Shown here: positions 6,220 to 22,673 of the stretch, in pieces
Layout: every line of letters starts with the position of its first letter
How positions within the stretch are numbered: the stretch's first letter is position 1
NCBI GenBank assembly: GCA_021107755.1
Contig: JAIOSF010000004.1
Span: 62,001-126,000 of the forward strand
DNA from: Arcobacteraceae bacterium
Lineage (GTDB): Bacteria > Campylobacterota > Campylobacteria > Campylobacterales > Arcobacteraceae
Length of the DNA: 64,000 nt
Reading direction: 5' to 3'
Position numbers and translations under genes: made by a program
Notes under the pieces: generated by a model
Told to the model about the DNA's origin: nothing
The model's database searches: none
What the model saw: only the letters and a program-made list of their open reading frames with translations

Positions 6220-6891
6220 ATGGATAACACTTTCTCTTTAAAGAATATAATACAAAAATTAGATTTTTTTCATAGATTGAATGAAAAACAAATTAATAGA
6301 TTAAGTGAAATATCCACCATTGAAAGTTATGAGAGAGATTACATCTTATCTTATGAAAAAACTAAAATAAATAAATTGTTTTTTTTAGTTGAAGGTTTAG
6401 CAAAAGCTTATAAAATTGATAAATATGAAAATGAAATTTTTTTATTTCATATTTATCAAAATAATATGATTTCAGAAATATTAGATACTAATAATGATGA
6501 ATTGGAATTTTTTTCAAATATATCTTTTATAAAAGATTCTAAAGTATTAATTGTTGATTATAAAGGCTTCAAACATGAGTTTTTAGAACAAAATATACTT
6601 AATTCTGAGTTTACTAATCAAATTGTTTTACAATCTATAAAATTACAATCGCTTATTAATAGAGAATTTATATATGATGCAGTATCTAAAGTTGCCAAAA
6701 TGATAAGTACTGATTTAGAAATATTTAATGAATTAAAAAGATCAGATATTTCTCTTATGCTACATATTCGACCCTCAACATTATCAAGAGTTTTAAATAA
6801 TTTAAAACGAAGAGAAGTTATAGATATTGATCATGGCAAGGTTTTTATTACAGATCAGTATAATTTAGATTTAATTTATAAAGAAATTTAA
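6220..6891 (+). CDS. Crp/Fnr-family transcription regulator of the nos region (cysteine-free)
   Basis: This 223-residue protein has a cyclic-nucleotide-binding-like beta-barrel (about 20 to 120), a dimer helix and a C-terminal winged helix. Its recognition helix reads RPSTLSRVLNNLKRR, keeping the Ser-Arg pair that reads TTG in Crp/Fnr sites. It contains no cysteine, so it cannot hold an FNR-type Fe-S cluster. It resembles the Nss, DNR or NNR type of nitrogen-oxide regulators in context. Family and domains are seen; N2O or NO sensing is inferred. TTG-N8-CAA sites ahead of nosZ, nosB and a NosL-like operon are the likely targets. Confidence 0.85.
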   Translation: MDNTFSLKNIIQKLDFFHRLNEKQINRLSEISTIESYERDYILSYEKTKINKLFFLVEGLAKAYKIDKYENEIFLFHIYQNNMISEILDTNNDELEFFSNISFIKDSKVLIVDYKGFKHEFLEQNILNSEFTNQIVLQSIKLQSLINREFIYDAVSKVAKMISTDLEIFNELKRSDISLMLHIRPSTLSRVLNNLKRREVIDIDHGKVFITDQYNLDLIYKEI

Positions 6892-6902
6892 GGGGATATA
6901 AT

Positions 6903-7865
6903 ATGAATAAAATAAAAATACTTGGGATAATGATTTTTTTATTATCATTATTATTGGTTGTAATTGTAAATTATATCGATAAACAGAATAAACAAAAAAG
7001 CAATATTTTAACACTAATTAATCAACAAAAAGATTATACGCAAGAGATATCAAAAAATATTTTTTATATTTATAGAAATCCAAATCATCCCACTATTCAA
7101 CTAGATAAAGCAGTGGAAAATTTTACTAATAATCTCAATAAAAAAGATAGAATACTAATGAATATTAAATCTGAAAAAATCAAAAGACAAAGTCAAAAAA
7201 TATTTGAATTTTGGAAGCAATATCATTCAGAAGTTATATTATTTAAAAATCAAATAAAAGTTATTATGCCTTATACAAATATATTATTAGAGGAAACAAT
7301 CACAAGAATATATATAAGTAATATGTCTTTAACAGCTGAATTTGATAGTTTAATTAAATTACATAAAGATTATTTTAATGAGTCATTAAGAGAATACAAA
7401 ATTATTCAATATATTTTATTTATTCTCATAAGTAGTCTTCTTATGTATCTTTTTTTACAAGTAAAACCCCTTCTTTCTTTTATACAAAAATTTATGAGTT
7501 CTGCAAATAATATTATCCAAAAGAATACAATTAGCGAGTTAGAACCAATTAATATAAAAGTTCATAATAAAGATATTCAAAATGTAGCAAACAATTTCAA
7601 TAGTTTGGTACAAAACATTAATAGTTCTATTGAACAAGGATATACTGCAATAGATTATACTTCAAATTCTTTAGAAAATATTGAAAATAATATTGAGGTA
7701 TTTTTAATACTTTTAAATGAAATGAATGATAAAAAAAAGATTGATATTGATATGGCAAAAAAAGAAGATGCCGTTATTCAATCTTTAGAAGAATTAATGA
7801 ATATTGCTTCAAAATTAAAAGATTTACAATCTAAATTAAAGGACTTAATACAACATAAAAAATAA
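6903..7865 (+). CDS. Membrane sensor-like protein with PilJ/NarX-type periplasmic domain
   Basis: The protein has 320 residues. One membrane helix (about 5 to 23) is followed by a helical periplasmic domain (24 to 165) resembling the PilJ-type N-terminal domain found in NarX-like sensors. A second helix (about 167 to 186) leads to a cytoplasmic tail with a HAMP-like stretch and coiled coil. No kinase, GGDEF or chemotaxis signalling hairpin is present. It lies 11 bases after the Crp/Fnr gene and before nosZ. It may sense a nitrogen oxide and pass the signal by protein contact, but this is inference. Confidence 0.6.
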   Translation: MNKIKILGIMIFLLSLLLVVIVNYIDKQNKQKSNILTLINQQKDYTQEISKNIFYIYRNPNHPTIQLDKAVENFTNNLNKKDRILMNIKSEKIKRQSQKIFEFWKQYHSEVILFKNQIKVIMPYTNILLEETITRIYISNMSLTAEFDSLIKLHKDYFNESLREYKIIQYILFILISSLLMYLFLQVKPLLSFIQKFMSSANNIIQKNTISELEPINIKVHNKDIQNVANNFNSLVQNINSSIEQGYTAIDYTSNSLENIENNIEVFLILLNEMNDKKKIDIDMAKKEDAVIQSLEELMNIASKLKDLQSKLKDLIQHKK

Positions 7866-7881
7866 AAACTACTTTTTTTAC

Positions 7882-7929
7882 AATAATTTGCCCTAAGTCA
7901 AATTATTTTCTTATTTTTTCATATATCAT
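7882..7929 (+). promoter_or_regulatory. Crp/Fnr-type site and promoter of nosZ
   Basis: A perfect 9-base inverted repeat (7882-7890 and 7899-7907) contains TTGCCCTAAGTCAA at 7888-7901, a TTG-N8-CAA site centred at 7894.5. A TATCAT -10 at 7924-7929 begins 29.5 bases downstream of the centre, predicting a start near 7936 and a site at -41.5. This is the class II activator position. The nosZ leader then has a GGAGAAAAGGAG ribosome site. The same geometry recurs before nosB and at 19517-19558. Confidence 0.75.
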
Positions 7930-7991
7930 TTTACAATCACTTGAATTTTAATCTTTATTCAAATGAAATATAAGGGAGAAAAGGAGAAAGT

Positions 7992-10589
7992 ATGAGTAGG
8001 GTTTTTAGTAAATTATCAACTTTAGTTTTAGGTACAACTATTGCTGCAACCGTTGCAACGGCAAGTACTGGTGAACTAGATAAGATAATGAAAAAAAGAG
8101 GCTTAACAGAGAATGATGTTATTCGTGCTGCAAAAACATATTTACCGACAGGTGGTAGAGATGAATTTGTAGTGTTTAGTTCTGGTGGTCAATCTGGACA
8201 AATGATTGTTTACAGTGTTCCATCTATGAGAATTTTAAAGTATATCGCAGTATTTACACCAGAACCATGGCAAGGATATGGGTTTGATGAAGGTTCTAAA
8301 AAAATTCTTAGACAAGGGAATATTAGAGGAAGAGAGATAAATTGGGGAGATACACATCACCCAGCACTTTCAGAAGTTGATGGAAAATATGATGGGAAAT
8401 GGTTAGCGATTAATGATAAAGCCAACCCGCGAATTGCAATTATTGATTTAGCAGATTTTGAAACTAGACAAATTGTAGTTAACCCTGTTTTTAAATCAGC
8501 TCATGGTGGAGCTTTTTTTACTCAAAATTCTGAGTATATAATAGAAGCTGCACAATATGCTGCACCATTTGACAATGACTATCACCCAATTGAAGACTAT
8601 AAAGAAACTTATAGAGGTGGGGCTACAATGTGGAAATTTGATTCTGAAAAAGGTCGAATTGATGAAAAAGCTTCATTTACAATAGAGATGCCTCCATATA
8701 TGCAAGATTTATCAGATTCTGGTAAAGGTGTATCTGATGGTTGGGGATTTACAAACTCATTTAACACAGAAATGTACACTGGTGGAATCGAAGTTGGTAT
8801 GCCACCAAATGAAGCTGGTATGAGTAGATTTGATACTGATTTTTTACATGTATATAACTGGGAAAAATTAGCAAAACTTGCGAAAGATCCAAAAAATGTA
8901 AAAGTTGTTAATAATCATAGAATCATACCTATGGATATTGCTGTTAAAAATAATGCTTTATTTTTAATTCCTGAACCTAAATCACCTCACGGTGTAGATG
9001 TTTCACCTGATGGTGAATATATTACAGTTTGTGGAAAATTAGATACACATGCTTCAGTATATAAATGGAGTAAAATTAAAAAATTAATTGATGCTAAAGA
9101 ATATATTGGAAAAGATCCATATGGTATTCCTATTTTAGATATGAAAAAATCTTTACATGGTCAAGTTGAATTAGGTCTTGGACCATTACATAATCAATAT
9201 TCAAATGTTGATGGTGAAATTTATACTTCACTTTATGTTGATTCACAAATCGTAAAATGGAACTATAAAGATCTTAAAGTTTTGGATAAAGAAAATGTTC
9301 ATTATAATGTTGGACATTTATGTGGTATGGAGGGTAAATCTGCTGACCCACAAGGTAAGTATATTATCTCTTTAAATAAACTTGCTATTGATAGATTTCA
9401 AAATGTTGGTCCACTTCACCCACAAAATCATCAGTTAATTGATATTAGTGGTAAAACAATGGATCTACTTGTAGATATGCCTTTACCTTTAGGTGAACCA
9501 CATCAAGCTGTTGCAATTAGAGCTACTAAATTACACCCACATGTAAGATATCCAATGGGTACAAATGTTACAACAGGTGAACAACATATTGGTAAAACTT
9601 TAGCTGGTCAAGAAAGAATTGAAAGAGATGGGAACAAAGTAACAGTTTTTGCTACTATGGTTAGATCTCATATTAACCCAGAAAGAATTACAGTTAACAA
9701 AGGTGATATAGTTACTATGCATTTAACTAACCTTGAAAGAGCTCAAGATGAAACTCATGGTTTTACAGTAGATCATTATAATGTTCATGCTTCTTTAGAG
9801 CCAGGTGAAACTGCATCTATTAAATTTGAAGCTGATATAGAAGGTGTTTTCCCATACTATTGTACAGAATTTTGTTCAGCACTTCATTTAGAGATGATGG
9901 GATACTTAATGGTTAAAGATCCAAATAAAAAATATACATCAGCTCAAAAACTTAAAATGAAAACAATGACTACTGAAGAATTAAAAGCAGAATATGATAA
10001 AACAGTTGCAGTTAATGATGCTACAGATGCAGTTATTCAATCTGTTGTTAAGTTTTTAAAAGAAAATAAATTCGGTGATCATAAAGTTGTAGCAGCTCTT
10101 GTAACTGATGCTTTTGATCAATATGGACAAATTCCTGCTCAGAAAAAACTAGCTAATGAAGCCTTAAAAGATGGGGATATAGAAAAAGCTATTTTATTTG
10201 AAAATATGATTTGGCAATTAATGGTTAAAACAGCGGATGTTGGTATTAGAGCCAAAGATGCACTTGTAAGAATAATAGCAACTAAGCAAAGTCCTGCTGC
10301 TCAAAGAGGTGAAAGAGCATTTAATGAGGGTGGTTGTTCTGGATGTCATGTTGTTGGAAAAGTATCTTCAGGTCCTGATTTAACGGGTGTTTTACAAAGA
10401 CATGAAAATGCTGAAAAATGGGTAAAAAGTTTTATTCTTAACCCAGAAAAAATGTATAAAGATCCATACGTTGATGGTATGATTAACTATTTTAATCTTA
10501 GAATGCCAAATCAACATATGAGTGAGAAAGAAACAGACGACATTATTGAATATTTTAAATGGATAGATAAAAATGCTAACTTATTTTAA
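7992..10589 (+). CDS. nosZ: Nitrous oxide reductase, clade II (Sec-type, cytochrome c-fused)
   Basis: This 865-residue periplasmic enzyme reduces N2O to N2. It starts with a Sec-type signal peptide without twin arginines. An N-terminal seven-bladed propeller carries the CuZ histidines, including the D-T-H-H motif at 120-123. A cupredoxin domain follows, with CuA ligands H589, C624, C628, H632 and M635. A C-terminal cytochrome c domain has a CSGCH heme site at 782-786. The fused heme domain and Sec signal define the Wolinella-like clade II enzyme. The residue matching the CuA tryptophan of Pseudomonas NosZ is Glu626. All catalytic ligands I looked for are present. Confidence 0.98.
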   Translation: MSRVFSKLSTLVLGTTIAATVATASTGELDKIMKKRGLTENDVIRAAKTYLPTGGRDEFVVFSSGGQSGQMIVYSVPSMRILKYIAVFTPEPWQGYGFDEGSKKILRQGNIRGREINWGDTHHPALSEVDGKYDGKWLAINDKANPRIAIIDLADFETRQIVVNPVFKSAHGGAFFTQNSEYIIEAAQYAAPFDNDYHPIEDYKETYRGGATMWKFDSEKGRIDEKASFTIEMPPYMQDLSDSGKGVSDGWGFTNSFNTEMYTGGIEVGMPPNEAGMSRFDTDFLHVYNWEKLAKLAKDPKNVKVVNNHRIIPMDIAVKNNALFLIPEPKSPHGVDVSPDGEYITVCGKLDTHASVYKWSKIKKLIDAKEYIGKDPYGIPILDMKKSLHGQVELGLGPLHNQYSNVDGEIYTSLYVDSQIVKWNYKDLKVLDKENVHYNVGHLCGMEGKSADPQGKYIISLNKLAIDRFQNVGPLHPQNHQLIDISGKTMDLLVDMPLPLGEPHQAVAIRATKLHPHVRYPMGTNVTTGEQHIGKTLAGQERIERDGNKVTVFATMVRSHINPERITVNKGDIVTMHLTNLERAQDETHGFTVDHYNVHASLEPGETASIKFEADIEGVFPYYCTEFCSALHLEMMGYLMVKDPNKKYTSAQKLKMKTMTTEELKAEYDKTVAVNDATDAVIQSVVKFLKENKFGDHKVVAALVTDAFDQYGQIPAQKKLANEALKDGDIEKAILFENMIWQLMVKTADVGIRAKDALVRIIATKQSPAAQRGERAFNEGGCSGCHVVGKVSSGPDLTGVLQRHENAEKWVKSFILNPEKMYKDPYVDGMINYFNLRMPNQHMSEKETDDIIEYFKWIDKNANLF

Positions 10590-10614: not shown

Positions 10615-10665
10615 GAATATAACTTGATTATTGTCAAGTTATATTCTCTCGAAATTAGTTATAGT
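10615..10665 (+). promoter_or_regulatory. Crp/Fnr-type site within a stem-loop, and promoter of nosB
   Basis: Between nosZ and nosB a perfect 13-base inverted repeat (10615-10627 and 10634-10646, 6-base loop) contains TTGATTATTGTCAA at 10624-10637, an FNR-like box centred at 10630.5. A TATAGT -10 at 10660-10665 begins 29.5 bases after that centre, the same spacing as at nosZ, predicting a start near 10672. The repeat could also form an RNA hairpin after nosZ, protecting its mRNA or lowering read-through. There is no T-run, so it is not a classic terminator. Confidence 0.7.
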
Positions 10666-15565: not shown

Positions 15566-16207
15566 ATGATAAAAGTTAATAATCTGACAAAAAAGTTTGG
15601 ACAACATATATCATTAAATAATATTAGTTGTGAATTTAAAAAAAATGATTATATAGCACTTATGGGTGCAAATGGTGCTGGTAAAACTACACTTATTCGA
15701 TCTATTTTAGGATATTATCATCCTGATAATGGGAATGTTTTAATCAATGGTTTAGATCCAATAAAACAAAGAGTTAAAGTTTTAGAAAATATTAGTTTTA
15801 TTCCTCAATTACCACCACCTATTAAATTAAGTATTGCGGAATTAATTCAGTATATTAGTGTAAGTGCAAAAGTAGATAAAGAGTTGATAAGACATTATGC
15901 AAATGAGATGAAACTAGATATAAATGAGAATATGAATAAATCCTTTTTTAAACTAAGCGGTGGTATGAAACAAAAACTTCTTATTGCTATTAGTTTAGCA
16001 AAAAAAAGTAGTATTATTATTTATGATGAACCAACAGCAAATCTTGATCCCAAAGCAAGAGAAGATTTTTATAGACTTTTAAAACAAAATGAAGATGACA
16101 AAGTATTGTTATTTGTAACGCATAGGCTTGAAGAAGTTGAAGAGATTGTCAATAGGCAAGTTTATATGGATATGGGAAAAATTATTTCAGATGAAACTAT
16201 TATTTAA
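15566..16207 (+). CDS. nosF: NosF, ABC transporter ATP-binding protein
   Basis: This 213-residue ATPase has Walker A GANGAGKTT, signature LSGGMKQK, Walker B IIIYDEPTANLDP and the H-loop THR. With NosY it forms the ABC transporter that drives NosD-dependent copper-sulfide centre assembly. It starts 2 bases after nosH, and its last 17 bases overlap the start of nosL in another frame. Confidence 0.95.
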   Translation: MIKVNNLTKKFGQHISLNNISCEFKKNDYIALMGANGAGKTTLIRSILGYYHPDNGNVLINGLDPIKQRVKVLENISFIPQLPPPIKLSIAELIQYISVSAKVDKELIRHYANEMKLDINENMNKSFFKLSGGMKQKLLIAISLAKKSSIIIYDEPTANLDPKAREDFYRLLKQNEDDKVLLFVTHRLEEVEEIVNRQVYMDMGKIISDETII

Positions 16208-16643
16208 TTTATTTTTAATTGTATTATTTGCATTTTTATATATTGGATGCGATTCAAATAGTAATCAAAATAAGAAGCAAGTAAGAATTTGTCCACAATG
16301 TAATATGAAATTACCAGATACAAATATACACACGGCTGATATGAAACACGATGATAAAATAGTATATTTTGATGATATAGGATGTATGATCTTATGGGCA
16401 AAAAAAGAAAAAATAGATTTAAAAAAAACAGAAACTAGAATTTTTTCAAATGATACAAAAAAATATATAGATCCTTTTACAGCAAGTTTTGCAATAAATG
16501 CAAAAACACCAATGTTGTATGGTTTTTCTGCCTATGAAAATGAGTGTAATGGGTGTATAAAATTTGAAGAAGTTATAATGAAAATGTTAAGGGGTGAACA
16601 TATGGCAAATCCAAAAATTAGAAAAAAAATATTAGGATATTAA
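16191..16643 (+). CDS. nosL: NosL, copper chaperone lipoprotein
   Basis: The ATG at 16191 lies within the end of nosF and gives a 150-residue protein with a lipobox (FLYIGC, Cys20). A copper-binding motif CPQCNM has C34, C37 and M39, and FDDIGC (Cys65) is characteristic of NosL. A second Cys pair (ECNGC) lies near the C-terminus. NosL delivers Cu(I) to NosD or apo-NosZ in the periplasm. An upstream in-frame start at 16128 would bury the signal peptide, so it was not used. Confidence 0.92.
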   Translation: MKLLFNLFLIVLFAFLYIGCDSNSNQNKKQVRICPQCNMKLPDTNIHTADMKHDDKIVYFDDIGCMILWAKKEKIDLKKTETRIFSNDTKKYIDPFTASFAINAKTPMLYGFSAYENECNGCIKFEEVIMKMLRGEHMANPKIRKKILGY

Positions 16644-17501: not shown

Positions 17502-18005
17502 ATGTTCAAATTATTAATAGGTATATTTATATTCATATCAGTTGCTTATAGCTCAAATTCATTGCTAGTGAAAGCTCCAATGAATTATCAAATGGACTAC
17601 ACTAAGGAAACTAGGTGTTTAGTGAGAAACTTTTTTATCTATAAAGATCCACAATGGGCAGCCAAAATAGAACTAAATAATGGTAAAAAAATCTTTTTTT
17701 CAAGTCCGAAATCTTTAATAGAGTTTTATCATAGACCTGGAAAGTGGTTTGATATTGGTGTAAAAAATGAAAAAGATTTTAAAGATATTATTGTAACTGA
17801 TTATGTAACAATGAAACTAATCAATGCAAAAGATGCCTTTTATATTTATGGGAGTCGTGCAATTTCCCCATCAGGTGATGATTTAGTAGCCATAGAAAAT
17901 GAACAAGATGCAAAGAATTTTGCTAAAAAATATAATGGCAAAAGGGTATTTAAATTTAATGAAGTCTCAGACGCACTTATTAGACTTATAAATGGGAGAA
18001 TATAA
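17502..18005 (+). CDS. Second NosL-family protein, secreted, single cysteine
   Basis: This 167-residue protein has an ordinary signal peptide ending near VAYSS and no lipobox. The body resembles the NosL core: KKIFFSSPKSLIEFYHRPGKW, then IVTDYVTMKLINAKDAFYIYGS and a C-terminal DAKNFAKKYNGKRVFKFNEV. It lacks the CxxCxM motif and has one cysteine (Cys39), preceded by methionines (APMNYQMDY) that could bind copper. It is separated from nosY by 28 bases and overlaps the PAS gene by 1 base. A periplasmic copper-handling role is inferred. Confidence 0.75.
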   Translation: MFKLLIGIFIFISVAYSSNSLLVKAPMNYQMDYTKETRCLVRNFFIYKDPQWAAKIELNNGKKIFFSSPKSLIEFYHRPGKWFDIGVKNEKDFKDIIVTDYVTMKLINAKDAFYIYGSRAISPSGDDLVAIENEQDAKNFAKKYNGKRVFKFNEVSDALIRLINGRI

Positions 18006-18544: not shown

Positions 18545-18582
18545 CAAGAAGAGTTATTTTCCGATTAGTAAAACTCTTCTTG
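18545..18582. terminator. Bidirectional terminator between converging operons
   Basis: Perfect 11-base arms (CAAGAAGAGTT and AACTCTTCTTG) with a 16-base loop lie between the PAS gene and the opposing NosL-like gene, overlapping the 3-prime end of the latter. The position between converging operons suits a two-way terminator. Short T-runs only, so strength is uncertain. Confidence 0.5.
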
Positions 18583-19012
18583 AAACTTCCTCAAAATTAA
18601 TTATTTCTTGATTTTGTTTGATTGTATTTTTTGTTTTATGTGCTGAAAATCCGTAAGCCATAGGTGTTATGTTTTCAGTATCATAAAATGCAGTTCGTGC
18701 ATCTATCCATTCGCCATTATTAACATCAGTAATCCAAATAACTGCTTTATCTTTCCACATAATTTGTTCCTCATTAAACCATAAAATAGTGCAGCCAATA
18801 TCATCAAACATATATGTTTTCCCTGTATTGGGATTTTTGATTTGAACTGTATTCTTTCTATCACTAACAACCATAACACATCTTGCACACATATCTCTAT
18901 CCCAGTGTACTTTGGTAATACCATCATCTACTTTTTTTTCACAACCAATGAATAACAAAGGAAGAGTAAAAAGCAATAAAAATATTAAATTAAATTGAAT
19001 ATTTCTAATCAT
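18554..19012 (-). CDS. Third NosL-family protein, lipoprotein
   Basis: Taking the ATG at 19012, this is a 152-residue lipoprotein (LLFIGC, Cys24) with the NosL copper motif CARCVM (C42, C45, M47) and FDDIGC (Cys74), as in the nosL of the main cluster. It is 8 bases overlapped with the upstream secreted protein, so the two are cotranslated. A Crp/Fnr-type site lies before the pair. It may serve the facing ABC/FtsX operon or give a second copper route to NosZ; both are inferences. Confidence 0.85.
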   Translation of the reverse strand: MIRNIQFNLIFLLLFTLPLLFIGCEKKVDDGITKVHWDRDMCARCVMVVSDRKNTVQIKNPNTGKTYMFDDIGCTILWFNEEQIMWKDKAVIWITDVNNGEWIDARTAFYDTENITPMAYGFSAHKTKNTIKQNQEIINFEEVSRRVLLIGK

Positions 19013-19490
19013 TAGCAAGTGCCATTTTTTCTAGTAAAAAACATTTATTTTGGTCAATCTCAAATTGAAATAATTTGGCTTTAGATTTTGCACTAACATA
19101 ATTATAAATTATGACAATTTGTGCTTCTAAAAATCTTTTAGAAGTACTACATACTCCATTTACTACAGCTTTTTCCATTCTTTTGTGATCTTCTTTTTTT
19201 ACAGCTTCATCACTCTTTGAACCTATATTTATTTCAAATGTATATATAAGTGTTGTTTTCTCAGATTTAATTGAAGTAAATTTTGTATATTTATCTACAA
19301 CCTTTGGCAAATCTTTTGATAATTCTATTGCAACATATTTAGCTATTTCCACATTTTGAGACTGTAACTGTTCGGGAGATACATCTTGTTGTTTCACTTC
19401 TAAATCATTAGCAAACAAAGAACTAACCGATACTATCAATAAAATAAACAAACCAAATTTTTTACGAAACTTAGAACTTAAAATATGCAT
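19005..19490 (-). CDS. Secreted protein of unknown function paired with NosL-like lipoprotein
   Basis: Starting at the ATG at 19490, which has a GGAG 8 bases upstream, this 161-residue protein has a signal peptide cleaved near SLFAND. The mature part is mixed alpha-beta, with two cysteines (in VCSTSKR and NKCFLLE) that could form a disulfide. I do not recognise the family. A GTG at 19499 is a possible alternative start, but it lies at the SD. It is the first gene after a Crp/Fnr-type promoter and is cotranslated with a NosL-like lipoprotein, so a periplasmic role in copper or N2O metabolism is likely. Confidence 0.6.
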   Translation of the reverse strand: MHILSSKFRKKFGLFILLIVSVSSLFANDLEVKQQDVSPEQLQSQNVEIAKYVAIELSKDLPKVVDKYTKFTSIKSEKTTLIYTFEINIGSKSDEAVKKEDHKRMEKAVVNGVCSTSKRFLEAQIVIIYNYVSAKSKAKLFQFEIDQNKCFLLEKMALAND

Positions 19491-19516
19491 TATATACACT
19501 CCAATTATTTTTTATT

Positions 19517-19558
19517 ATTGTACCATTTTATAAAAATAAAAATATTGACAAACATCAA
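19517..19558 (-). promoter_or_regulatory. Crp/Fnr-type site and promoter of the secreted-protein/NosL-like pair
   Basis: Read on the minus strand, TTGATGTTTGTCAA (19558-19545, centre 19551.5) is followed by a TACAAT -10 at 19522-19517. The centre-to-minus-10 distance is 29.5 bases, identical to nosZ and nosB. The predicted start near 19510 leaves a 20-base leader before the ATG at 19490. Confidence 0.72.
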
Positions 19559-19559
19559 A

Positions 19560-20516
19560 TTATAACCAAACACCATTTTTTATATAATATATTAAAGGGT
19601 AGCTACTTACTAAAAGTAAAAATAAAAGATTGAATACAAGAGATAGTTTATATGCTTTTTTTATTCTTGTATTATCATGAATAAATCCAACAGTCAATCC
19701 ATTAAAAGTACCTACAAAAAGTAGAGTATAAATGAAATAACCAATATAATAATAATCTTTTTGTAAAAAACAAAATGGACAATGATGTGTAGGTAGTTCA
19801 TAAATATAGGTACCAAAATATGAGATAAGACTAATAATTGAGATAATTATGAAGAATAAATTTGCCAATGAAAAAAACTCTTTTTGTCTTAAATAATAAA
19901 ATATTATTATTAGTAAAAAGTTTCCATAAAACAAAGATAATAATATAGGAGTTTGTATCAAAAAGATATTTGATATATAAGAAGTAGCACTACTTGAATA
20001 TAAAGTACCACAACAACTTACCATTTTATCAATATCTATAGCACTAAACATAATACCTTCGAATATAATTTCTGTTAAAAACAATAAAAAAATAATAATA
20101 AAAAATCCAAATTTTATTTTAGTATATTTTAACTCTTTACTTTTTATATCTAAATAGTGTAAAACTAACCAAAATCCAAAAAGATAAATATTAATAATTT
20201 TAAGTATAAAAAGATATGTTCCATATTCTGTTGCATCTACAACTCCAGCTGCACACATAGCTCCTGTAAGGAGATTTGATATCTTATCTAATGTAAATAT
20301 AAAAAATAAAAACAAAGGTAATTTGATAGCAAAAATATATTTAATAATAGTTGCTGTTAAAAAACTTTGTTTTTCAAGTGAATATTGAAGTTTTGTAGTT
20401 GCATTTAAATCCCATTTAAAAAATATTCTTACAGCTAATACAAATGCTACTAAGCTAAAAAAAGCAAAAATAATATTAAGTATAAATATCGCTATTACTT
20501 CAGGAACTAACATCAT
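19560..20516 (-). CDS. Polytopic membrane protein with conserved-looking Cys/His loops
   Basis: This 318-residue protein has about eight hydrophobic helices. Polar loops carry Cys88 (GAMCAAG), Cys168-Cys169 (SCCGT) and a HHCPFC motif at 254-259. I do not recognise the family. The CPFC pair next to two histidines looks like a redox or metal site, broadly recalling VKOR-like CxxC proteins, without enough likeness to assign it. It is the last gene of an ABC/FtsX operon, overlapping the ATPase gene by 4 bases, and neighbours the NosL-like pair. A metal or thiol handling role is inferred. Confidence 0.55.
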   Translation of the reverse strand: MMLVPEVIAIFILNIIFAFFSLVAFVLAVRIFFKWDLNATTKLQYSLEKQSFLTATIIKYIFAIKLPLFLFFIFTLDKISNLLTGAMCAAGVVDATEYGTYLFILKIINIYLFGFWLVLHYLDIKSKELKYTKIKFGFFIIIFLLFLTEIIFEGIMFSAIDIDKMVSCCGTLYSSSATSYISNIFLIQTPILLSLFYGNFLLIIIFYYLRQKEFFSLANLFFIIISIISLISYFGTYIYELPTHHCPFCFLQKDYYYIGYFIYTLLFVGTFNGLTVGFIHDNTRIKKAYKLSLVFNLLFLLLVSSYPLIYYIKNGVWL

Positions 20517-21193
20517 TCGTGTATATCTCCAATAGTACCATTTTTTATCTCTATAATTTTATCTACAAAATCAAGATTAAAAAACAAAGGATCGTGAGTA
20601 GCTACTATAATTGTTTTATTTGATTGTTTGAGTTTTCGTAAAATATCTATAAAATTAAGTGAAAGTTTTTCATCAAGATTTGCAGTTGGTTCATCTGCAA
20701 TTATAATTTTTGGATCATTTATATGGGCTCTTGCTATTGCAACTCTTTGTTGCTCACCTCCTGATAAATTTCTTACAATCATATTTTGTTTATGGCTTAT
20801 ATCAAATTTTTCCATCACTTGATTTAATTTATTAAGTGCTTCTTTTTCATCTGGATTTGTTGGTACTAGGGGTAAAAGTATATTGTCTTTTACACTTAGT
20901 GTTGGAATCAAATTATATTTTTGGAATATAAAACCAATATTTTTTCTTCTATAAAGAGCCGCAAAATTATCTGGAAGTTTTGATATACGATTATTATCCA
21001 CTATTACTTCGCCACTAGTAGGCTTACTTAAAGCTGCAATAAGTGATAAAATTGTACTTTTCCCACTTCCGCTAGCTCCTTTAAGTACTATTAATTCGCC
21101 CTCTTTGAACTCCAAGTTTATATTTTCTAATGCTGTTACTTTATGATCATTATTTATCTCATATATTTTTGTGACATTTTCTAATTTTATCAT
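20513..21193 (-). CDS. MacB/LolD-type ABC transporter ATP-binding protein
   Basis: This 226-residue ATPase has Walker A GASGSGKST, signature LSGGEQQRVAIARA, Walker B IIIADEPTANLDE and H-loop ATHD. It is of the LolD/MacB class, which usually works with FtsX-type permeases in mechanotransmission or lipoprotein extraction rather than in substrate import. Both neighbours overlap by 4 bases, so the operon is translationally coupled. Its permease is the adjacent FtsX-like protein. Confidence 0.9.
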   Translation of the reverse strand: MIKLENVTKIYEINNDHKVTALENINLEFKEGELIVLKGASGSGKSTILSLIAALSKPTSGEVIVDNNRISKLPDNFAALYRRKNIGFIFQKYNLIPTLSVKDNILLPLVPTNPDEKEALNKLNQVMEKFDISHKQNMIVRNLSGGEQQRVAIARAHINDPKIIIADEPTANLDEKLSLNFIDILRKLKQSNKTIIVATHDPLFFNLDFVDKIIEIKNGTIGDIHE

Positions 21194-22383
21194 CTTATAA
21201 CCTCGTCTGTTTCAAGTGTTGCTGTTCTCCAAGAAGGGATAATAGTTGCTGCTATATAAATAGGAACACTTAGGAAAAATACTAAAAATAAAGTCTGAAA
21301 ATCAAATACAAAAGGCAACTCAAAAGTTGTTTTTAATTCACTATATCCAACAAATACATCTCTTAAAAGTGGAGCTTGAAATAAATAAACAAATGCAAAT
21401 GCAGATATAATTCCTATCATATAAGCTAAAAATGAGATAATAAAACTTTCATAGAATTTTTCTTTTAAAACATCATCTACCGTCCATCCTATTGCTTTAA
21501 GTATTCCTATTTCTCTTTTTTCTTCACTACTTAAGCCACTTGATTTATCATAAATAATCATAAAAAAAGTAAATAATGAGATAATAAATATAGTTAAAAA
21601 TATTCCACTTTTGTAGTTAAAAATATTTTGATAACTTACTTTAAAATCTTCAGAAGTTACAACTCTAGTATCTGGATACATAAGTTTTATTTTTTGTGAT
21701 ATTGTACTTATCTCTTCCGGGTTTGCTACTTTTACAACTATATCTGTAGTTTTATCTTCATTTATATCAAATATTTCTTTTGCATTTTCTTTTGACATTA
21801 TTATCACATCATTGGATTCTAATTGTATATTACTATTAAATGTTCCTGCTATTGTAAGCTTTTTGATTGAGCCATCTGGTTTAATAAAGTTAAAATAATT
21901 TTGTAAATAATATCCTTTTTTTAGAGATTCATACACTCCTTGTCCAACTATCATGGAGGAATTTTCACTTAACTCATTTAGGTCAAATTTTTTTACAATA
22001 TTCTCAAAGCTTTTTTTATACTGATTCTCATAAGCATCTAATCCAACAATAGTAAAATTTACTCCTACATTTTCAAAATAATAATATCCCCAAACTCTGG
22101 CAACCGCATCAGTAACCCCAGTGATGGTCAAGATATCATCAACAACACTTGTATCTATATCGTATGATTTTCCAGCTTTTATTTTTTGTACTGTAATTTG
22201 TGGTAAGGCTTCAACAGTAGAGTTTAATTCATATTTAATAGAATTGGATATAAAAAAAATTGAAGTTAATAAAAAAGTTAAAAGTATAAAAATATTTAGA
22301 ATAAAAAAATTCTTACTTTTTTGTCTTAATATTGCATTTATTGCATATTGAATTAAATATAAATTTATTTTTTCTTTTATCAT
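21190..22383 (-). CDS. FtsX/MacB-like ABC transporter permease
   Basis: This 397-residue protein has the MacB plan: a first membrane helix (about 25 to 48), a periplasmic domain of about 210 residues, then three helices near 263-285, 312-335 and 358-380. The SSEEKREIGILKAIGWTVDDV segment after the second helix is the coupling motif of this class. It has no fused ATPase. Between its neighbours it forms a four-gene operon with 4-base overlaps. The substrate is unknown; the link with NosL suggests copper-related periplasmic work. Confidence 0.85.
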   Translation of the reverse strand: MIKEKINLYLIQYAINAILRQKSKNFFILNIFILLTFLLTSIFFISNSIKYELNSTVEALPQITVQKIKAGKSYDIDTSVVDDILTITGVTDAVARVWGYYYFENVGVNFTIVGLDAYENQYKKSFENIVKKFDLNELSENSSMIVGQGVYESLKKGYYLQNYFNFIKPDGSIKKLTIAGTFNSNIQLESNDVIIMSKENAKEIFDINEDKTTDIVVKVANPEEISTISQKIKLMYPDTRVVTSEDFKVSYQNIFNYKSGIFLTIFIISLFTFFMIIYDKSSGLSSEEKREIGILKAIGWTVDDVLKEKFYESFIISFLAYMIGIISAFAFVYLFQAPLLRDVFVGYSELKTTFELPFVFDFQTLFLVFFLSVPIYIAATIIPSWRTATLETDEVIR

Positions 22384-22673
22384 TTGTATCCTTGTGAATG
22401 TGAATATGTGAATGTTGAGGGGAAGTACTCTCTTAAATTTCCATCATCTTTATAGATACTAAATATATCAGCTAAACTTCTATGTCTTATATAAGTAGCC
22501 TCAGTAGAGATTGCAAGATCAGGAAGTTGCACTAGTTGTACAAACTCTATTTTTGCCTCTTTCATCTCTTTTGTCATAGACTTATTGTTTTGTAAATAAA
22601 TAACTTGTATGAAAAGTAGAGTAAATAATGAAATTATTGTATAAAATAGATACGTAGTTTTTTTATTCATCAT
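22380..22673 (-). CDS. Small single-pass membrane protein leading the ABC/FtsX operon
   Basis: This 97-residue protein has one N-terminal membrane helix (about 8 to 27) and a periplasmic part of about 65 residues with a KIEFVQLVQLPDLAISTEATYIRHRSLADIF segment, quoted here only as evidence that it is polar and probably folded. I do not recognise the family. It is the first gene of the four-gene operon and overlaps the permease gene by 4 bases. No clear ribosome site or Crp/Fnr site is seen upstream. It may be a membrane-fusion-like or substrate-binding partner of the permease. Confidence 0.6.
   Translation of the reverse strand: MMNKKTTYLFYTIISLFTLLFIQVIYLQNNKSMTKEMKEAKIEFVQLVQLPDLAISTEATYIRHRSLADIFSIYKDDGNLREYFPSTFTYSHSQGYK

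Follow-up and report, generated by a model that had tools for sequence, protein, structure and literature searches.

The window analyzed here, a stretch of 64,000 nucleotides, corresponds to positions 62001-126000 of contig C10 in a 2.62 Mb draft genome whose nearest relatives are Arcobacteraceae. Its minus strand carries a gene pair at 19005..19490 and 18554..19012. The first product, termed SEC, is a protein of 161 amino acids with an N-terminal signal peptide, two conserved cysteines (Cys114 and Cys150) and, according to structure modeling, a predicted fold of the AspS/PA3611 type. Sequence searches of Pfam, NCBIfam and PDB gave no usable match for SEC, a search of plasmids found no homologues, and no earlier description of SEC beside nosZ was found in the open-access literature. 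The second gene encodes a NosL-like lipoprotein. The SEC stop codon and the NosL start overlap by 8 nt (ATGATTAG), so that the two genes form one unit. Upstream of the pair, the genes for a small protein, an FtsX-type permease, an ABC ATPase and a membrane protein occupy 19560..22673 of the minus strand, a context in which read-through into the pair is possible. The matching row of small protein, permease, ATPase and membrane protein genes in the relative G051 has NosL-like, DsbD-like and two-NosL-domain genes ahead of it, a gene order which suggests that the row at 19560-22673 encodes a copper or NosL delivery transporter.

The clade II NosL protein is a copper chaperone lipoprotein with a CXXCXM motif (PMC6530538). 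Both a lipobox cysteine (LFIGC) and this copper motif (as CARCVM) are present in the 18554-19012 product. Its PF05573 score of 20.1 bits is under the 24-bit cut-off, and it shares 53-63% identity with the products of many genes located about 6 kb downstream of nosZ in relatives. Compared with the NosL-like protein from the usual nosL place of this genome (16182-16643), it is the one that resembles the in-cluster NosL of many relatives more closely. An earlier reading of the window, made from the sequence only, had described a NosL-like gene pair, and the second gene probably is a member of the NosL family. Like clade II NosL (PMC6530538), its product is a nos-linked CXXCXM lipoprotein, but it is a further copy that lies away from the usual nosF-nosL-nosY place, has a predicted promoter of its own and is paired with SEC. 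Three NosL-like genes (16182-16643, 17502-18005 and 18554-19012) lie in one nos region; CXXCXM occurs in two of them, as CPQCNM and CARCVM, and the gene at 17502 gives a strong NosL profile match without CXM at the motif place.

A Crp/Fnr-type box, TTGATGTTTGTCAA, which fits TTGAY-N4-RTCAA and was also found before SEC homologues, is located at 19558-19545 of the minus strand (centre 19551.5) and starts right behind the stop codon of the gene 20516-19560 on the same strand. The -10 hexamer TACAAT follows 22 bases past the box, at 19522-19517 (minus strand), and the distance from the box centre to the first -10 base is 29.5 in the window sequence. Crp/Fnr activators of class II promoters typically sit at -41.5, and the distance of 29.5 bases places the box there. 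The box/-10 spacing gives a predicted transcription start at about 19510, followed by a putative ribosome-binding site GGAG (19499..19502, minus strand) and, past it, the SEC ATG at 19490. With a palindromic box at -41.5 and a -10 at the matching distance, the SEC site is a predicted class II activator-dependent promoter of the Crp/Fnr type. The sequence-only reading had placed a Crp/Fnr box with TACAAT at 29.5 bases before 19490-18554 and had assigned the same geometry to nosZ and nosB; both claims hold. On the plus strand, the nosZ promoter has the box TTGCCCTAAGTCAA (7888..7901) with TATCAT at 7924-7929, and the nosB promoter has TTGATTATTGTCAA (10624..10637) with TATAGT at 10660-10665; the centre-to--10 distance is again 29.5 bases in both, a register common to the SEC site, and the nosZ box is the weaker one, with the left half TTGCC. 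The nosZ gene itself (7992..10589, plus strand) encodes a clade II N2O reductase by homologue comparison. Among the nosZ upstream regions of 30 Arcobacteraceae, a box with a -10 at gap 22 was found in 19, and each other gap from 14 to 30 was found in 6 at most.

Within the window, bare TTG-N8-CAA was rejected as evidence, its count being at chance level (35 found vs 33.2 expected), and TTGA-N6-TCAA showed a marginal excess (8 found vs 3.8 expected); the informative unit is the palindrome plus the spaced -10. A pattern search of the genome yielded 44 TTGAY-N4-RTCAA sites, or 88 orientations, and TANNNT stands exactly 22 bases on in at least 14 of the 88, compared with about 3 expected (binomial P of about 3e-6); these whole-genome counts come from pattern searches and selected stretches. 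The geometry described in the sequence-only reading exceeds chance. The consensus given there, TTGAY-N4-GTCAA, correctly described a Crp/Fnr box but was too narrow, the box being the symmetric TTGAY-N4-RTCAA. Beyond SEC, nosZ and nosB, the genome has about a dozen further promoters with box and -10. They precede cytochrome genes (small cytochrome c genes and a multihaem cytochrome operon), the genes napA, moaA and trmO, a DUF2249/NnrS-like cluster, genes for a TonB receptor and a hemerythrin-like protein, and an FmdE-like gene; the Crp gene that diverges from the latter has its own box. The promoters on contigs C6, C17 and C21 were partly picked for a spaced -10, so this list is illustrative and the unbiased figure is that of at least 14 in 88. 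An N2O-only regulon, as originally proposed, was rejected: the identical kind of promoter precedes napA, moaA, DUF2249/NnrS-like, hemerythrin-like, TonB receptor and crp genes, so that nap, moaA, NO-related, cytochrome and Crp genes are covered as well. The regulon is one of nitrate, NO and N2O respiration, wider than the nos genes.

In Nitrosophilus labii, a TTGA-N6-TCAA box begins 48-49 bases upstream of the start at napA, norE and nosB, and the paper describing it refers to NssA/B/C of Wolinella (PMC11539149). The box and the -41.5 geometry found here resemble those by which Nss-type regulators control nap, nor and nos genes in Wolinella and N. labii; SEC-nosL is not reported there as a target (PMC11539149). 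The regulator in the present genome is identified by position only. Because the consensus and the spacing have already been published for N. labii (PMC11539149), the promoter is ordinary in kind, and the novelty is its target, SEC-nosL.

SEC occurs in 15 of 104 genomes of the family (weakly in G037), and nosZ is present in 14 of these 15; the exception, G096, is an assembly 86% complete. For the class-level set, a clear SEC homologue was defined by E < 1e-30, with G037 (26% identity, E 8e-6) and distant homologues (E of about 1e-4 to 1e-10) left out. By this definition, SEC is present in 40 of 397 Campylobacterota genomes, and all 40 have clade II nosZ (counting the broken nosZ of G329), compared with 129 of the 397 overall (hypergeometric P 3e-22, shared ancestry ignored). 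Conversely, 89 of the 129 nosZ genomes have no SEC, and SEC is therefore not generally needed for N2O reduction. Named records of SEC come from Sulfurimonas, Sulfurovum, Sulfuricurvum, Hydrogenimonas, Arcobacter, Poseidonibacter and Halarcobacter. The gene order is SEC, crp, P-box protein gene and nosZ in nine Sulfurimonas-type genomes that were inspected, the last three being homologues of 6220-10589 in the window. Among 80 named loci, which overlap with the preceding set, 29 have a relative of the 6220-6891 crp gene close to SEC and 11 have a NosL gene there. SEC is linked to N2O-reducing denitrifiers, more strongly than the sequence-only reading could know when it tied an unrecognised secreted protein to N2O respiration, a proposal that co-occurrence, gene order and promoter conservation now back. 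We consider it probable that the class II promoter drives SEC-nosL within the nitrogen-oxide regulon and that SEC is a periplasmic factor for N2O reductase biogenesis in denitrifiers.

The promoter could also be real while SEC serves denitrification overall, for instance in NO stress or in nitrite or NO reductase assembly, rather than N2O reduction. SEC tracks norB almost as closely as nosZ: norB is present in 39 of the 40 SEC genomes, SEC occurs in 39 of 66 genomes with both nosZ and norB and in just 1 of 63 with nosZ and no norB, and the regulon to which the box belongs is a general nitrogen-oxide one. However, none of the 18 genomes with norB and no nosZ has SEC (Fisher P 2e-6, likewise with shared ancestry ignored), nor does any of the 250 with neither gene, and in the inspected loci SEC adjoins nosZ-linked genes or nosL, never nor; we regard such a general role as rather unlikely.

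The AlphaFold2 model of SEC, based on 14 aligned sequences, has a pLDDT of 83, and strong matches to it in the PDB were limited to PA3611 (3npd) and two pilotins, EpsS (6i2v) and AspS (4ftf). The predicted order of a helix, three strands, two helices, two strands and a helix, with a cysteine pair between helix 2 (Cys114) and helix 4, the last helix (Cys150), both residues being invariant, is that of the AspS/PA3611 fold. In AspS, a disulfide between Cys74 and Cys111 fastens the last helix to helix 2, and the SEC model agrees with AspS in strand order and cysteine pair (PMC3542185). Like PA3611, the function of which was undetermined in PMC3542185, SEC has a signal peptide and no lipobox. Its sequence is only 13-16% identical to PA3611, AspS and EpsS; for SEC, unlike these proteins, no linkage to secretion genes was seen and the distribution is tied to nosZ. 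This match to the AspS/EpsS fold would also suit a role as pilotin or secretin chaperone in a secretion or pilus system that is incidentally induced in anaerobiosis. Such a role is improbable, and SEC was not classed as a pilotin of the AspS kind, an outer-membrane lipoprotein by which a T2SS secretin is delivered, given that no lipobox cysteine follows the signal peptide, no secretin gene lies beside SEC in the inspected loci and SEC keeps company with nosZ. Judging from the model, SEC may instead work like a periplasmic binding protein of the AspS/PA3611 fold.

Promoters upstream of SEC homologues were scored with thresholds of at least 9/10 for the box and at least 4/6 for the -10. Gap 22 was found in 19 of 47 genomes, while most other gaps were found in 0-5, with 8 at gap 25 and 10 at gap 32. 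Among the 80 loci, 24 of 75 SEC loci have the gap-22 promoter, compared with 0.5 on average and 3 at most in 200 resampled sets. The box is kept despite differing neighbour genes: in G071, SEC has TTGATATTTGTCAA with TACAAT and an unrelated gene ahead of it, and in several further Arcobacteraceae, boxes like TTGATTTATATCAT stand with TAAAAT before SEC in an htpG neighbourhood. Of the three genomes with the closest SEC-nosL neighbours, G047 and G051 lack the box, and the locus in G053 is cut by the contig end; more than half of the SEC homologues have no box by the criterion used. It is very improbable that TTGATGTTTGTCAA is a chance palindrome in an AT-rich spacer, with the pair read through from the upstream ABC-transporter genes: the upstream gene does end at 19560, adjoining the box, and in G047 the pair lies 39 bp behind a homologue of this gene without a box, but G071 has the exact box and spacing behind an unrelated gene, and the promoter recurs across several families, far above the resampled controls.

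In the preferred reading, with SEC as a factor for N2O reductase biogenesis, a Crp/Fnr-superfamily dimer of the Nss/DNR type would bind TTGAT-N4-GTCAA at -41.5 beside RNA polymerase, presumably under nitrogen-oxide-respiring conditions, and the two-gene unit of SEC followed by the NosL copper chaperone would be turned on together with the nap, NO-related and nos genes. SEC would be exported to the periplasm and adopt an AspS/PA3611-like fold with a stabilising disulfide; as a small protein, it would bind or chaperone a periplasmic client in N2O reductase biogenesis, with NosZ and NosL as the obvious candidate clients. Most likely, SEC is a periplasmic accessory protein, not described before, that serves N2O reduction in denitrifiers and the biochemical role of which we infer.

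The best candidate activator would be the product of 6220..6891 (plus strand), assigned by sequence and gene order as a Crp/Fnr-superfamily regulator without cysteines, or a paralogue on contig C6. An Fe-S-cluster Fnr was rejected for this protein, which has no cysteine. The recognition helix of Fnr has the pattern ExxSR, and that of the 6220-6891 product, PSTLSRVL (PATLSRVL or PETLSRVL in orthologues), appears to be near it. Other Crp genes are located near nap on C6 (two) and on C22 (one). The gene at 6903..7865 (plus strand), conserved between crp and nosZ, encodes, by alignment and gene order, a membrane protein that lacks an output domain and in which the P box is altered. It aligns with a paralogue beside another Crp gene on C6 that has a canonical P box (PilJ/NarX-type, PF13675), the P box reading QKDYTQEISKNIF vs QRMLTQKITKNIF in the paralogue. 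The close clade of the 6903-7865 product (E < 1e-38) is found only next to nosZ, in the own genome and in Sulfurimonas-type genomes, all of them SEC-positive, and this protein could provide the input to the nos regulator. Tentatively, and with less confidence than in the biogenesis role itself, SEC may be the founding member of a new pilotin-fold family whose periplasmic members assist the assembly of clade II N2O reductase in denitrifying Campylobacterota; it would then work together with NosL and be wired to the nosZ-linked cysteine-free Crp and the altered-P-box membrane protein.

N2O, a strong greenhouse gas, has its biological sink in N2O reductase, and the assembly of the clade II enzyme is only partly known. 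SEC, a secreted protein that is widespread and consistently associated with nosZ and for which a fold and a promoter are predicted, is a direct knock-out target, and the crp-P-box-nosZ trio offers a testable route to nitrogen-oxide sensing upstream of N2O respiration. The norB gene of the present genome (L050, 11932-13302, contig C6) is 84-92% identical to copies in some genomes of other families, e.g. G371, G394 and G342, most norB-like matches being about 40% identical to it; these identities suggest that denitrification genes have been transferred between families.
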